From Arthrobacter sp. StoSoilB20 (GTDB taxonomy: Bacteria; Actinomycetota; Actinomycetes; Actinomycetales; Micrococcaceae), in NCBI RefSeq assembly GCF_019977295.1, contig NZ_AP024651.1, forward strand, positions 3,100,001-3,164,000: 64,000 nt of DNA, in the 5' to 3' direction. Shown piece after piece: positions 49,586 to 55,217 of this stretch. Positions within the stretch are counted from its first letter, which is position 1. Each line of letters begins with the position of its first letter. The notes under the pieces are model-generated. The model was given only the letters and a program-made list of their open reading frames with translations, was not told where the DNA came from and did no database searches. The position numbers and the translations under genes were made by a program.

Positions 49586-51214
49586 TTACTTGGATATGAC
49601 GCCCAGGCGGAACTTGAAGGACGGGTCCAGTGTCTTGTCGACACCATTCACGCCGCTTCCGACTACCGCCACCTGTGCACCCTGGAGCAGGGGCAGCGTG
49701 GAAATGTCCTTGGCGAGGGCGTTCTGGACATCCTTGATGTCTGATTCCCGCTTGGTCTTGTCAGCCTCAGTCAACTGCTTGCCGATGAGGTCGTTCACCG
49801 TGGCGTTGTTGTAGTGGTTCTTCAGGAAGCCGCCCTCCGGGAAGAAGGGAGTGAGGTAGTTATCGGCATCGCTGAAGTCCGGGAACCAGCCAAACTGGAA
49901 CAACGGGTATTCATCGGCGCGGCTGGCCTTGCTGTAGGTGACCCATTCCGTGGACTGCAGGTTCACGGTGAAGAGGCCCGACTTCTCCAGCTGTTCCTTG
50001 ACCATTGCGTATTCATCTCCGGATGATCCGCCGTAGTGGTCCGGGTTGTACTGCAGGTTCAGTGCCACAGGCTCGGTAATTCCTGCGTCGGTCAAAACCT
50101 TCTTGGCCTTGTCCAGGCTTGGCTTTCCGCCATCACCGTAGGCATCCTTGAACGACTCGTTCGCACCAAGGAATCCGCTCGGAACGTTGGAGTACAGCGG
50201 CAGGTACGTGCCCTTGTAGACCTGGTCTGCGATGGCCTGGCGGTCAACGAGGTTGGCCACGGCCTGGCGGACGGCCAATGCCTTGGCCGGATCTGCGCCG
50301 GCTGCCTTGGTTCCATAGGGCATGGTGTCGAAGTTGAAGGTGATGTAGCGGATCTCGCCGCCAGGCCCGGTGAGGACCTTGACTTTGGAGTCCTTCCGGA
50401 GGTCATCGATGTCCGTGGCACTGAGGCTGCGGAAGGCGACGTCGATGGCTCCCTGCTGGATTTCCAGCTTCAGGTTGGTGGGGCTGGCGTAGTACTTGAT
50501 GGTGGCAGCATCGTTGGCCGGCTTGCCCAGGACGCCCTGGTAGTCCGGGAACGCCTTGAAGCTGACAAGCTCGTTCTTCTTGTAGCTGTCGATGGTGTAC
50601 TGGCCGTAGAAAGCATTGGCCTTGATGATCTCGTCGTCGGACAGGACTTTGTCGGCCGGGAAGACTTCGTCGTCCACGATCGGCGCGGCAGGGCTGCTAA
50701 GGATCTGGCTGAAAGTCTGGTCGTTGGCGTTCTTCAACTTGAACACCACTGTGGTGGCGTCCGGTGCGCTCACGCTCTCGATGTTCGTCAGCAACGATGC
50801 CGGGCCGGCGGGGTCGTTGATGGCCACCTGCCGGTCAAAGGAGAACTTGACGTCCTTGGAATCCAAGGTGTGGCCGTTGGCCCACTTCAGGCCGGATTTG
50901 AGCTTGACGGTGTACTCGGACGGAGCCGTGAACGACGACGATTCCGCCAGGTCCGGGACCGGCTCGGCTCCACCGGGCTTGGAGTTCAATAGGAAGGAGT
51001 AGATCTGGTTCATCACCATGAACGAACCGTTGTCATAAGACCCTGCCGGGTCAAGCGACGTGACCTTGTCTGTGGTGCCGTAGGCGATGGGGCCCGCGGC
51101 TGCCGGGGCGGACGAGGAGCCGCCGCCCGAGGGACCCGTGCATGCCGTCAAGGCGAGCGCGGAGATGCCCGCCAGCGCGATAACGCCGTGCAGGGCCTTC
51201 TTGTTCATTGCCAT
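49586..51214 (-). CDS. Peptide ABC importer substrate-binding lipoprotein
   Basis: A 542-residue family-5 solute-binding protein (DppA/OppA type). The start MAMNKKALHGVIALAGISAL leads to the lipobox ALTAC (about 22-26), then a Gly/Ser linker. Mature features include VTSLDPAGSYDNGSFMVMNQ and VKLKSGLKWANGHTLDSKDV, where substrate enters the cleft. It should bind peptides outside the membrane and deliver them to the two permeases. The ATG at 51214 follows GAAGG about 10 nt upstream; a start 21 codons earlier is unlikely. It is the first gene of the operon and diverges from the caspase gene. Confidence 0.92.
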   Translation of the reverse strand: MAMNKKALHGVIALAGISALALTACTGPSGGGSSSAPAAAGPIAYGTTDKVTSLDPAGSYDNGSFMVMNQIYSFLLNSKPGGAEPVPDLAESSSFTAPSEYTVKLKSGLKWANGHTLDSKDVKFSFDRQVAINDPAGPASLLTNIESVSAPDATTVVFKLKNANDQTFSQILSSPAAPIVDDEVFPADKVLSDDEIIKANAFYGQYTIDSYKKNELVSFKAFPDYQGVLGKPANDAATIKYYASPTNLKLEIQQGAIDVAFRSLSATDIDDLRKDSKVKVLTGPGGEIRYITFNFDTMPYGTKAAGADPAKALAVRQAVANLVDRQAIADQVYKGTYLPLYSNVPSGFLGANESFKDAYGDGGKPSLDKAKKVLTDAGITEPVALNLQYNPDHYGGSSGDEYAMVKEQLEKSGLFTVNLQSTEWVTYSKASRADEYPLFQFGWFPDFSDADNYLTPFFPEGGFLKNHYNNATVNDLIGKQLTEADKTKRESDIKDVQNALAKDISTLPLLQGAQVAVVGSGVNGVDKTLDPSFKFRLGVISK

Positions 51215-51319
51215 CTGGTGAACCTTCTGTTCGATGGATTCGGCGCGCCGCCGTGGGATATTTGTGACGGCGCACACTCTTAGTGCCTCGATTCAACCAG
51301 ACTTCGAACGGGGCGAACC

Positions 51320-51338
51320 CTCAAAACAGTGATTTGAG
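51320..51338. promoter_or_regulatory. Inverted repeat in the divergent gap (possible operator)
   Basis: CTCAAA and TTTGAG arms of 6 bp flank a 7-nt spacer in the 247-nt region between the peptide-binding-protein gene and the caspase gene. A repressor site or chance palindrome are both possible. The rest of the gap must hold the two promoters, but I could not assign -10/-35 elements with confidence. Confidence 0.3.
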
Positions 51339-51461
51339 ACACAAAATTTACTTTCCAGTAGCTTCGGTCCGGCTTCGGCAAACCATTGCCCGGGGTGGAG
51401 CTCAGGAATATGGTTTATTCCGAGTCTCCACTCACTGAAAGTCGGCACAAAGGACAGCCAC

Positions 51462-52289
51462 ATGAGCAAGGCAGCATTGTGCGTAGGGATCAACGAGTTC
51501 AAGTTCCTGCCCCAAGCCAGTTGGCTCAACGGCTGTGTGAACGACGCCGAGGATCTGGCGGGGATGTTGGAGAAGGACTATGGCTTCGACCGGTCCTCGA
51601 TCACGGTCCTTCGCGACGCCGGCGCTGCGAAGAAAAACGTCATGGCCGAACTCAATAAATTGGTTGACGCTGCGGTCTCGGGCGCTGCCAACCACATCGT
51701 CTTCACCTTCTCCAGCCACGGGACCCAGATCCCGGACAACAGCGGAGACGAAGACGACAGCCTTGATGAGGCATTCGCGTGCTACGACATCAATGACGCC
51801 GGTGACTCCTGGGATCCCGACACCGTCATTTCGGACGACGAACTGGCAGCAGCGTTTTCGCGCCTTCCGGAAGGCGTTTTGATGGACGTGGTCCTCGATA
51901 CCTGCCACAGCGGTACCGGGTTGAAGTCCTTGGACTTGATCCCCGGTCGTCGTCCGCGCTTTCTGCCGGCACCGACGCCACGCGCTGTTGTGGCCAACGA
52001 GGATCTGGAAACGCGGACCCTGCGGGACTTGGTCAAAGCGGCCAAGCTCTCTACCCCGGTACTCATGGCAGCTTGCCGGTCTGATCAAACCGCCGCCGAT
52101 GCCTTGATGGAGGGCCGCTACAACGGCGCGTTCACCTACAATTTGGTCAAGTCCCTGCACGGTGACCGGACCTTGGGGCGTGCGGCCCTGCTCAAAGAGG
52201 TCAGCAAGGGGCTCAAGTCCGGCGGCTTCGACCAGGTTGCACAGCTGGAAGCTTCCAAGCACGCACGAAACGCCGCCTGGGGTGCCTGA
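51462..52289 (+). CDS. Caspase-family (metacaspase-like) cysteine protease
   Basis: A 275-residue soluble protein made of a caspase (C14) domain only. The catalytic dyad is His86 in FTFSSHGTQIPD and Cys148 in VVLDTCHSGTG. The start CVGINEFKFL and the NDAEDLAGMLEKDYGF helix are typical of bacterial metacaspases. It has no signal peptide, membrane segment, or recruitment domain. Asp101 (SLDEAFACYD) and nearby acidic residues could form the S1 pocket for Arg/Lys or the calcium site. AAAGGA lies before the ATG. It converges with a metalloprotease gene with 38 nt between stops. The natural substrate is unknown. Confidence 0.9.
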   Translation: MSKAALCVGINEFKFLPQASWLNGCVNDAEDLAGMLEKDYGFDRSSITVLRDAGAAKKNVMAELNKLVDAAVSGAANHIVFTFSSHGTQIPDNSGDEDDSLDEAFACYDINDAGDSWDPDTVISDDELAAAFSRLPEGVLMDVVLDTCHSGTGLKSLDLIPGRRPRFLPAPTPRAVVANEDLETRTLRDLVKAAKLSTPVLMAACRSDQTAADALMEGRYNGAFTYNLVKSLHGDRTLGRAALLKEVSKGLKSGGFDQVAQLEASKHARNAAWGA

Positions 52290-52327
52290 CCGCCGCTCCT
52301 TCTCCGCCCGGACGTAAATTTCGGTTG

Positions 52328-53959
52328 TCAGCTGCCGGTGGCGTGGAACTTGTCCCGGACTCCCGAGGAGGCGGCCTCTTCGGCATCGTGGTGCTGGTCC
52401 GAACCAAACAGTTGTCCTTGCCGTTCCCTGTCCATCACCGGTTTGAGCGCTGCGTATACCAATCTGCCCCCGGCATCGAAGCGCAACAGCCCTCCCCCAC
52501 GGATGTCAACGAATTCCCTCCGGGTTTTCAGGCCGAGGCGCACATAAGCTTCCCTGCGGCTCATCCGGACGGTCTGGATGAAAGATGCACCGATCTCGGA
52601 GATGATGAAACCGTCCGGGGACACACGCTCCGAGGTCCGTACCCGCGTGGAGCTCAAGGGCGTGCGGCGCTCCAGCCGCGCCGCCTCCAGAAGCCGCGGA
52701 TTCTCCCAGACGAATCGCTGCACCTCCTGGGGATCGGAGCCGAGGGCCGACAACCTGATGGGGTAGCGGAGCCCTTGGTAGCTGTCCACGCCGCTGATGT
52801 TGTTAATGGACACCCTGCGTATGCCTATTCCGGAGAACTCGGCCTGGAGTGCCTCACGGTATCCATGGTTGTCTTCGGGAACCATGTCGAGGTCGGCCGC
52901 GATGATGCCGCGAAGCAGGTCCCGCCACGAAACGTCGACCGGTGGCATGTAGGAGAGGCCACGGATCACCATGCGCAGGACACGCGTAGCCACTATCGAG
53001 CCTGATTCGGCCTTCTGTTGCAGGCTTTGGTTGTCTCCGAACCGCGCGTTCCGCTCCGACCACAGCCGCTGGACCGCCCGGAGCACCGCCCCCACCACCA
53101 CGGCCCCCCTCGCATGCGGTTCCGGAAGGGACTGCCAGTCTTCGGGCACGGCGCCTATGAACGGTTCCCGCAATGGTCCACGGGCGAAGAGATCGCGGGC
53201 AAAATCGAAAAGGGACCGCATCAGGACCACATCGTCCACTACTTGCCCGGCCTCAAAGCCGCCACCGGCCGCTTCAAGTTGCCGCGAGACGATGTCCCGG
53301 GAAGAAAAGACCGAAAGGATGGCTACGATGTCGGCCAACGCCTCGTGCATGGCCAACTGCTCCATGGTGGCCATCTGGTCCGCCCACGCGGGACGGAATC
53401 CGTCCAGGATGGCATGGGTCACCTCGTGGGCAACAATGTCACGGTAGAGGGCTGTGGGTACTTTATAACCCATCCGGTCCACCGAACCGAAGCGGATGAT
53501 GTTGGTGCCCCGCTCGTAGCCGGTGTCGGTGGCGGTGATCAGGTCCCTGGCTTTGAGGACCACCCGCCCTTCCGGATTCCACGGCATGCGCCTGCCGAGG
53601 GTTGATTCGAAGATGTCCAAGGTGCTCATGGCCACGCCATAGACGTGCTGGGCCAGGAAGCGGGTGTCATCAAGGAGCTCACGCAAACCGGCCGGTGGGG
53701 GTTCGGAAACCAGCTTCCAGGGATCACCTTGCTGCGTCAGGGTCACCGGGGACACAGAGGTTCCTCGCCACTTCCTGATGTGGATTGCATAGCGATGACC
53801 CGTGGGACCACGCCTCAGGCGTTCTACCGGGATCCGGACCTGTGCAGTCAGCGGCGCCATTCCCGGGGCGCCAATCGGCCCCTCGGCAAGAACGGTCACT
53901 GAGACCATCTGCCCGGCTTTGATGTCTCCCGGGCTCTTTTTTGGAAATGCCACAGTCAT
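52328..53959 (-). CDS. Thermolysin-like (gluzincin) metalloprotease
   Basis: A 543-residue protein with no signal peptide. The zinc site is HEVTH (178-182) in DIVAHEVTHAILDGF, with the third ligand as Glu206 in MHEALADIVAIL, close to the NExxxD motif of thermolysin-type M4 peptidases. A beta-rich N-terminal region (1-90) and a C-terminal region of about 330 residues (including FVWENPRLLEAARLER) match nothing I know. The ATG at 53959 has GGGACGG upstream; a TTG 8 codons earlier is possible. Without an export signal it should act in the cytoplasm, which is unusual for this type. It converges with the caspase gene. Confidence 0.8.
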   Translation of the reverse strand: MTVAFPKKSPGDIKAGQMVSVTVLAEGPIGAPGMAPLTAQVRIPVERLRRGPTGHRYAIHIRKWRGTSVSPVTLTQQGDPWKLVSEPPPAGLRELLDDTRFLAQHVYGVAMSTLDIFESTLGRRMPWNPEGRVVLKARDLITATDTGYERGTNIIRFGSVDRMGYKVPTALYRDIVAHEVTHAILDGFRPAWADQMATMEQLAMHEALADIVAILSVFSSRDIVSRQLEAAGGGFEAGQVVDDVVLMRSLFDFARDLFARGPLREPFIGAVPEDWQSLPEPHARGAVVVGAVLRAVQRLWSERNARFGDNQSLQQKAESGSIVATRVLRMVIRGLSYMPPVDVSWRDLLRGIIAADLDMVPEDNHGYREALQAEFSGIGIRRVSINNISGVDSYQGLRYPIRLSALGSDPQEVQRFVWENPRLLEAARLERRTPLSSTRVRTSERVSPDGFIISEIGASFIQTVRMSRREAYVRLGLKTRREFVDIRGGGLLRFDAGGRLVYAALKPVMDRERQGQLFGSDQHHDAEEAASSGVRDKFHATGS

Positions 53960-54077
53960 CGCCGTCCCGAATGCGGACCCCAAATACCGCAGCGGAAGCG
54001 CTGCTTAGGCCAGTATGGAGGCGCCCCATTCCGGTGGCAATGGCTGTGGCGGGAATGGGCCCTGGACCGGATTGCTC

Positions 54078-55217
54078 CTAGAGAGCCACGCGCTGAAGGG
54101 AACGGGCGGCGTCGATGGTCGCCTGCCCCAAAACCCTGCTGCCCTGGTACAGGACTACGGTCTGCCCCGGAGCCACGCCGCGGAGCGGCTCGGTCAGGGT
54201 GACAACCAGCTCTGCACGCTGCACTCCAGAGTCGTCATCGACGGTCTCCACGTGGGCTCGCGCCGGAACGGGATCCCCATGCGCCCTTACCTGGGCATGG
54301 CAATCAAACTCTGCGCCCGTCTCGACTTCGGCGATGGGCAGGCCTGCCCAGGAAACCTTGATGCCGCGGATCTCGTCGATGGCCAGCAGTGCCTCCGGCC
54401 CCACCACCACTTTGTTTTCCTTGGGACGGATTTCCAGGACAAAGCGGGGCTTGCCATCAGCGGCCGGGGTTCCCAGCTTCAAACCGCGCCGCTGTCCCAC
54501 TGTGAACGCGTTGGCACCGGGGTGCTCGCCGACCTTGGCGCCGGTTTCGTCCACGATGTCACCGGTAGTCATGTCGATCTTCTCGGCCAGCCAGCCACGG
54601 GTGTCGCCGTCGGAAATGAAGCAGATGTCGTGGCTGTCCGGCTTGTTGGCCACGGACAGGCCCCGCCGCTCGGCTTCAGCACGTACTTCTGCCTTGGAGG
54701 GGGTCTCTGCCAGCGGGAACATGGAGTGCTTGAGCTGCTCATGGGTCAGGACACCCAGGACGTAGCTCTGGTCCTTGGCCCAATCGGCTGCGCGGTGGAG
54801 TTCACGGTTGCCGTCGGCGTCCTCGATCACCTTGGCATAGTGCCCGGTGCAGACTGCGTCGAAGCCCAGTGCGATGGCCTTTTCCAGCAGGGCCGCGAAC
54901 TTGATGCGTTCATTGCATCGCATGCAGGGGTTCGGTGTCCGGCCGGCAGCGTATTCATCAATGAAGTCCTGGACAACGTCTTCCTTGAAGCGCTCCGAAA
55001 AATCCCACACATAGTAAGGGATTCCAAGGACGTCGCAGGCCCGCCAGGCATCACGGGAGTCTTCAATGGTGCAGCAGCCCCGGCTTCCGGTACGCAGGGT
55101 GCCGGGCATGCGCGACAACGCGAGGTGGACTCCGACGACGTCGTGTCCGGCCTCTACGGCGCGGGCGGCGGCTACGGCGGAGTCCACTCCGCCGCTCATT
55201 GCTGCAAGTACTCGCAT
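54078..55217 (-). CDS. mnmA: tRNA-specific 2-thiouridylase MnmA
   Basis: A 379-residue enzyme that puts sulfur at C2 of U34 in Glu, Gln and Lys tRNAs. The ATP-binding PP-loop is [13 protein letters not shown] (5-17). The catalytic cysteines are Cys98 in [10 protein letters not shown] and Cys199 in SHDICF. The C-terminal domain carries [12 protein letters not shown] and [12 protein letters not shown]. Sulfur would come from the cysteine desulfurase encoded 1.4 kb away. AGAAAG lies before the ATG. In mycobacteria the desulfurase gene directly precedes mnmA; here an FAD reductase gene lies between them on the other strand. Confidence 0.95.

Follow-up and report, generated by a model that had tools for sequence, protein, structure and literature searches.

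Two protease genes converge in the genome of Arthrobacter sp. StoSoilB20, one encoding a caspase and the other a zinc metalloprotease (MP). This raises the question of whether their products form a two-protein system and which of them would act on the other. The pair lies within the window, the whole stretch of 64,000 nucleotides that was analysed, to which all positions refer. Animal cell death runs through protease cascades. Only a few bacterial caspase pathways are known (PMC12799240). An initial annotation, made from the sequence alone, singled out the pair as the best candidate in this stretch for an undescribed two-protein system, in which one protease might activate the other. The features of the locus are listed in Table 1.

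Table 1. Features of the caspase–MP locus in window positions; residue counts refer to the chosen set of loci given in the text.
Feature	Position	Strand	Remarks
oppA (so called here), peptide-binding protein of ABC transporter	49586..51277	-	flank; divergent from caspase
Promoter-like TTGCCC-N17-TATGGT upstream of caspase	51386..51414	+	by eye; within conserved CATTG/GAATA blocks, 24 aligned upstream regions
Metacaspase (caspase family C14), 275 aa, single domain	51462..52289	+	Pfam PF00656 (Peptidase_C14) E 1.3e-21; PDB metacaspases
Catalytic His86 codon	51717..51719	+	kept in 43/43 checked orthologues
Catalytic Cys148 codon	51903..51905	+	kept in 43/43 checked orthologues
Thermolysin-like (gluzincin-motif) MP, 543 aa from ATG	52328..53959	-	subthreshold Peptidase_M4; thermolysin ranks first when the PDB is searched by profile
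Phe538-His539 motif of the C-terminal tail; may be a latch or a docking peptide	52343..52348	-	H539 nearly invariant in alignments
Variable linker, MP residues 503-537, from last conserved strand to C-terminal motif	52349..52453	-	29-66 aa; length and sequence vary
H282 of MP	53114..53116	-	kept in 45/46 checked MPs
E206-ALA-D210, ExxxD third zinc ligand motif	53330..53344	-	aligned with thermolysin's in profile searches
HEVTH zinc motif, MP residues 178-182	53414..53428	-	alignment
Sigma-70-like match upstream of MP	54012..54040	-	1 found in region; shuffles mean 0.3
mnmA	54078..55217	-	flank; MP's strand, 118 nt upstream of MP

The locus and its two proteins

The open reading frames, His86, Cys148, the HEVTH motif and the stop codons of the initial annotation were all confirmed, as was the 38-nt gap between the convergent stops (52290..52327). 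A terminator within this gap was considered and rejected, as no terminator-like site was found there. Neither protein has a signal peptide visible by eye, in line with the cytoplasmic location first assumed.

The caspase consists of a single domain of the metacaspase type and nothing more, as originally described. Its best solved relatives in a sequence search of the PDB are the metacaspases 6w8s and 4f6o, and the His-Cys dyad of Peptidase C14 is present as His86/Cys148, as judged from Pfam and the structures matched by sequence. Residue conservation was counted in a chosen set of loci comprising 43 caspases and 46 MPs, with the broken MP of Cryobacterium genome G530 left out. In this set D99, D102, E103, D125 and D126 are kept in all 43 caspases, and D96 and D158 in 41 each; the metagenomic caspase P0221 departs at several of the acidic metacaspase residues. 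The D96-D158 set is presumed to have roles in Arg/Lys specificity and calcium activation, and acidic residues of this kind in metacaspases predict cleavage after Arg/Lys. The EACC1-associated caspases belong to the same caspase superfamily but their NCBIfam model, NF047832, matches only weakly (29.7 bits, cut-off 140). PADLOC returned a generic caspase model for the caspase and no match for MP.

MP had been read as a thermolysin-like zinc protease. This stands for the active site, where HEVTH and Glu206 are joined by Asp210, and does not extend to membership of a named family. No Pfam family scores above its cut-off (Peptidase_M4 E 0.16, 12.8 bits against 22.4), nor does any NCBIfam family, and Peptidase_M4 appears at E <= 1 in 11 of 19 MP relatives, with a best value of 0.0058. 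A single-sequence search of the PDB gave no match. In profile searches of the PDB thermolysin ranks first at E 0.36 and 0.026, below significance, with an alignment spanning HExxH...ExxxD. The gluzincin motif is thus present while the M4 family score falls short, and some MP relatives are named 'gluzincin family metallopeptidase' by NCBI. H178, E179, H182, E206 and D210 are kept in 46/46 checked MPs. H282, which is missing from P0116 and P0119 in the MP alignment, is a candidate counterpart of the second catalytic histidine of thermolysin.

An upstream TTG start would extend MP to 551 aa. The large N- and C-terminal regions pointed out earlier are conserved and of unassigned fold, and both contain invariant residues outside the catalytic core: an LAEGP block in the N-terminal region, and PDGF...SEI and RGGG...RFD.GG in the C-terminal region. 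MP resembles the M4 enzyme thermolysin in its HExxH and ExxxD motifs, but differs in the lack of a significant match, of an export signal by eye, and in its N- and C-terminal regions. By its sequence, MP is a member of an unnamed family with thermolysin-type active-site motifs.

A hydrophobic-His motif near the C-terminal end occurs in 113 of 114 MP tails (110 by pattern and three more by eye), compared to a mean of 15.5 and a maximum of 26 in shuffled tails, in a sample of 119 MPs of at least 500 aa from which five without an anchor were left out and of which many are closely related. P0116 is the only one of the 114 without it. The motif is also carried by MPs linked to MBL-fold proteins, is absent from the divergent MP of G143, and lies away from the very end in an MP fused to an S8 protease. 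The Phe-His tail suggests an autoinhibitory latch, as a histidine sits on a tether in a zinc enzyme; a docking peptide is equally possible.

In the window genus, Arthrobacter/Paenarthrobacter, the pair has mnmA on one side and peptide-transporter genes on the other, and this block is conserved across the compared loci; the flanks of the window pair are peptide-transporter and mnmA-iscS genes. The promoter-like stretch upstream of the caspase was missed by a consensus promoter scan. By-eye reading of 24 aligned upstream regions found CATTG in all 24 and GAATA in 23. LexA/SOS control was rejected, since a LexA-like pattern was unmatched in the upstream regions. The block TGATTTGAGACACAAAATTTAC at 51330-51351, between oppA and the caspase, is near-identical in most of the 24 upstream regions, in both groups, and is perhaps a control element of oppA.

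Co-occurrence in related genomes

Among 121 genomes of the window genus, an ortholog-grade caspase occurs in 20 (E 7e-184 to 1e-105) and an ortholog-grade MP in the identical 20 (E 0 to 4e-147), with neither occurring alone in any genome. Six further genomes hold other caspases only (best E 7e-19) and four hold distant MPs only (E 8e-25 to 2e-21). The two genes are convergent neighbours in 19 of the 20, and ~400 kb apart in G022. G121 and G122 carry MP at its usual place, with the caspase on a different contig. These three genomes, unlinked yet with both genes, form one clade and so count as one event.

The pattern recurs in two other genera, where caspase and MP are neighbours too, so that the earlier expectation of a conserved neighbourhood is borne out in 19 of 20 same-genus genomes, in Cryobacterium, in Sinomonas and, in another arrangement, in G437. 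In 57 Cryobacterium genomes MP is found at E < 1e-60 in 15, the caspase in 15 and both in 14. G546 retains both genes as fragments only, G540 a caspase fragment and no MP, and in G518, G523, G530 and G533 MP has stops or is broken and the caspase frame is open. In Sinomonas (15 genomes) both genes occur in the same three, and a fourth genome has another caspase only (E 8e-16). Fisher tests of co-occurrence, which ignore kinship, gave 3e-23 for the genus, 3e-11 for Cryobacterium and 0.002 for Sinomonas. As they are conserved in other genomes, caspase and MP are not chance open reading frames.

On a species tree of 103 genomes the pair needs six changes (p 0.031), with one label serving both genes, which occur in the same genomes; block deletion could explain these changes because the genes are usually neighbours. 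The mnmA stretch allowed 79 of the 101 pair-less genomes of the genus sample to be examined, 71 of which have an oppA match in that stretch, and no remnant of caspase or MP was found near mnmA in any of the 79 (tblastn E 1e-3). A mobile defence island was rejected on these grounds, given one chromosomal site in the genus and no remnant in the examined genomes.

A first look at the order level covered 396 genomes, scoring the best three and best six candidates per genome. At least 13 have an MP match, and all eight at E < 1e-75 have an ortholog-grade caspase adjoining, three of these eight overlapping the genus samples or genus list. One of the eight, G369, has its MP match in two pieces. G424 has an MP match at 36% identity and no caspase neighbour. 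The genes of G437 are rearranged yet adjacent: MP is preceded at 39 nt, on its own strand, by the caspase, which is fused behind another domain. Three of the 11 order genomes with the caspase type (G451, G512, G331; E 3e-84 to 2e-79) have no MP among the matches listed. The expectation that MP does not occur widely without a caspase holds for the window clade, as every genome searched for both genes that has a window-clade MP also has the caspase, except G546, in which both are broken. It fails for the wider MP family, which pairs with MBL-fold proteins.

Separate histories of the two genes

The two genes do not always share their ancestry. Group-B MP, measured in G115 and G059, is 49–51% identical to the window group and 65% to Sinomonas, while group-B caspase is 71–76% identical to the window group and 55–58% to Sinomonas. 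G022 displays the reverse, with an MP 80–82% identical to the window group and a caspase at 60–64%. For MP, a single A+B clade was rejected by AU testing (p 0.004), and so was a position of the moved caspase within the window group (p 0.024 and 0.035). These results are weakened by the length of the MP stem leading to group A and by the naming of groups after the trees were seen. The data suggest that either partner was exchanged separately while the other stayed.

At greater distance the MP tree divides with 100/100 support, 21 rows being caspase-linked and 11 MBL-linked. The rows were picked from loci with a known partner, and long branches (G143, G437, G424) drew a warning from the program. 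Window-type caspases form one clade (99/98) that includes three neighbours of CHAT proteins.

Partners of the wider families

Distant MPs adjoin MBL-fold proteins, often together with a DUF2235 protein, and lack a window-type caspase. Such MP-MBL or MP-MBL-DUF2235 cassettes were found in actinobacteria, Rhizobium, Deinococcus, Hymenobacter and a planctomycete; that of R. phaseoli lies near a CBASS cyclase gene and that of R. gallicum near multiubiquitin and ThiF genes. All three MBL neighbours tested match PADLOC LmuA (7e-17, 2e-15, 1.5e-20) as well as Avs1a, with RTasMBL as a further family matched. According to PMC12799240, LmuA/Avs1a-type MBL-fold proteins are pro-nucleases of antiphage systems, and a protease encoded alongside unlocks them. 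HamM and Avs1a are unmasked when a loop is cut, and in canu a caspase unlocks the MBL-fold pro-nuclease and acts upstream (PMC12799240). The main text on nuclease-protease pairs mentions 'other diverse families' and does not contain the word metalloprotease (PMC12799240).

Cassettes that combine an MP relative with an MBL-fold protein and a DUF2235/Tle1-like protein recur at L068:6690-11031, L069, L070, L071, L138:6835-10968, L181:7130-11099 and L182:6902-11697. Judged by its genes, this cassette looks like an undescribed protease-gated nuclease/lipase system.

The caspase has partners of its own. In the actinobacteria G451, G512 and G331, a window-type caspase lies directly downstream of a CHAT protein (L133:8671-12892, L134:8779-12938, L135:8205-12446), and a CHAT-caspase operon is possible. 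The CHAT proteins are 1073–1103 aa long with the domains DUF7362, DUF7379, DUF7363 and CHAT, identified by Pfam in two of the three and by 56–62% BLAST identity in the third.

A domain that reads as lipase-like is fused to the caspase domain at L137:9562-11676, L131:6695-8893 and L132:6337-8580. The hydrolase/lipase-like reading, for G437 and Cryobacterium, rests on motifs seen by eye in a domain without a Pfam match. In two Cryobacterium loci the fused caspase is on the other side of MP, so that two caspase genes flank it. The domain was rejected as a needed third partner, as it occurs in two of 121 same-genus genomes and neither has the pair. A caspase-MP fusion was likewise rejected: the C-terminus of the caspase in Rhizobium L179 differs, being 29% like part of the L133 CHAT protein, and the MP fusion that was found is with an S8 protease in a different strain.

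Comparison with described systems

In type III-B CRISPR, SAVED-CHAT is reported to act on a caspase in a proteolytic cascade. The window pair resembles this in having a stand-alone caspase with a protease, and in the CHAT neighbours of its caspase type in G451, G512 and G331. It differs in that no CRISPR, SAVED domain or nucleotide signal was seen at the window, and the activator would be a zinc protease. A CHAT protease in a type III CRISPR context was not found among the flanking genes.

Like canu and the nuclease-protease pairs of Hachiman, AVAST, Lamassu and DRT (PMC12799240), the window pair places a protease gene beside a partner enzyme. Unlike them it lacks a nuclease and joins a thermolysin-like zincin to a second protease. 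An MBL-fold pro-nuclease is absent among the flanks of the window pair but present beside distant MPs. Caspase with alpha/beta-hydrolase is a described pairing in VMAP ternary conflict systems (PMC7159879), and the fused caspases of G437 and Cryobacterium are similar by eye, while MoxR, vWA and VMAP were not noticed among the genes flanking the window pair, which are conserved housekeeping genes. Among the titles and abstracts listed from the open-licence literature, none describes a caspase + MP pair, in agreement with the initial annotation, and no described counterpart to such a two-protein system was found.

Order of action and alternative readings

Caspase and MP are probably functionally linked. 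In favour of this are the intact active-site motifs of both, their joint occurrence in three genera, the pairing of their families elsewhere with other proteases or with relatives of protease-gated effectors, and, stronger than linkage, the persistence of both genes after either had been replaced. We give a probability of about 0.42 to the reading that they are one unit, a two-protease death or defence switch in which MP activates the caspase. MP would be a zinc endopeptidase kept latent under regulation, with non-catalytic regions that perceive a trigger or are acted on by one. Once released, it would cut and activate the small, sensor-less metacaspase, which would in turn cleave cell proteins after Arg/Lys, and the cell would be stopped or killed. 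MP is favoured as the activator because its relatives take the position of activator next to proteins related to gated nucleases, because the other partner of the caspase also has a protease-type domain (CHAT), and because only MP has non-catalytic regions. As both families occur in modular protease-effector systems, the pair looks like one recombination of such modules.

Several facts weigh against this reading. Being convergent, the genes do not make up one operon, and a promoter-like site precedes each of them; the chromosomal site between mnmA and oppA is fixed, unlike mobile defence islands; most co-losses are explicable as single deletions of two neighbours; G540 has a caspase fragment and no MP, and MP is broken or interrupted by stops in four Cryobacterium genomes with an open caspase frame; and the caspase of canu acts upstream, an order that the Phe-His tail also suits. 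The patchy joint loss and the settings of the relatives speak for a conflict or death role, which the fixed housekeeping locus opposes. Of the interpretation first offered, a unit of two apparently cytoplasmic proteases is supported, and activation of one by the other is plausible; against it stand this housekeeping setting and the caspase type without MP in G451, G512 and G331.

The MP tail makes the reverse order a strong rival, if on balance an unlikely one. Here the caspase would initiate, cut the MP linker and remove the Phe-His latch from the zinc site, leaving the freed MP as executioner. The nearly universal hydrophobic-His motif on its variable tether fits this order, as do the acidic metacaspase residues kept in most orthologues, which predict Arg/Lys cleavage. 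The unmasking of a gated enzyme by the canu caspase and of HamM and Avs1a by loop cleavage offers precedents (PMC12799240). However, the tail motif is common to MPs without a caspase neighbour, so that it is not necessarily cut by a caspase and may serve for docking instead, and no single Arg/Lys site is conserved clade-wide in the compared tails.

It is improbable that both proteins serve one pathway without cutting each other, for example as proteases that work in parallel under stress or starvation and share a trigger. The stable chromosomal locus with mnmA and oppA and the separate promoter-like sites are consistent with this, as is the finding that in the window genus no hydrolase-type component accompanies the pair as a third member. 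Against it, both families elsewhere have proteases or relatives of effectors gated by proteases as neighbours. Least probable is that the genes have no functional link and were co-inherited and co-lost by linkage, which the single locus of 19 of the 20 genus-sample pairs, the absence of remnants and the sufficiency of six tree changes would allow, but which fits poorly with the presence of both genes in the unlinked clade (one event), at other loci, in another arrangement and after separate replacements.

If zincin and metacaspase do form a unit, it would be a caspase pathway of only two genes, very small and readily expressed and assayed. A wider proposal joins this to the relatives: an undescribed two-protease immune or suicide cascade, with MP from an unrecognised zinc-protease family that, in several phyla, also activates gated effectors (MBL pro-nucleases and DUF2235 lipases), and with MP held shut by the Phe-His latch. 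As a whole this remains doubtful. Through the MP-MBL link, the range of proteases that unlock gated antiphage effectors would come to include a family of zinc enzymes, for which the link also supplies a latch that can be tested.

Further members of the MP family

A class-wide search with the Cryobacterium MP (394 genomes, best three candidates per genome) gave strong matches only in G000, G246 and G345, and two further matches at E 2e-4 and 1e-3. A caspase near MP on an Isosphaeraceae plasmid was rejected as a counterpart, having no match to the window caspase at E 1e-3. On a Rhizobium ruizarguesonis plasmid an S8 serine protease is fused in front of the MP-family domain (L180:6420-9755). One of 50,697 phage records has an MP match, a 29% identical MP-family stretch in MT836994.1:4717-5793, an unannotated 9.5-kb 'Bacteriophage sp.' from faeces.
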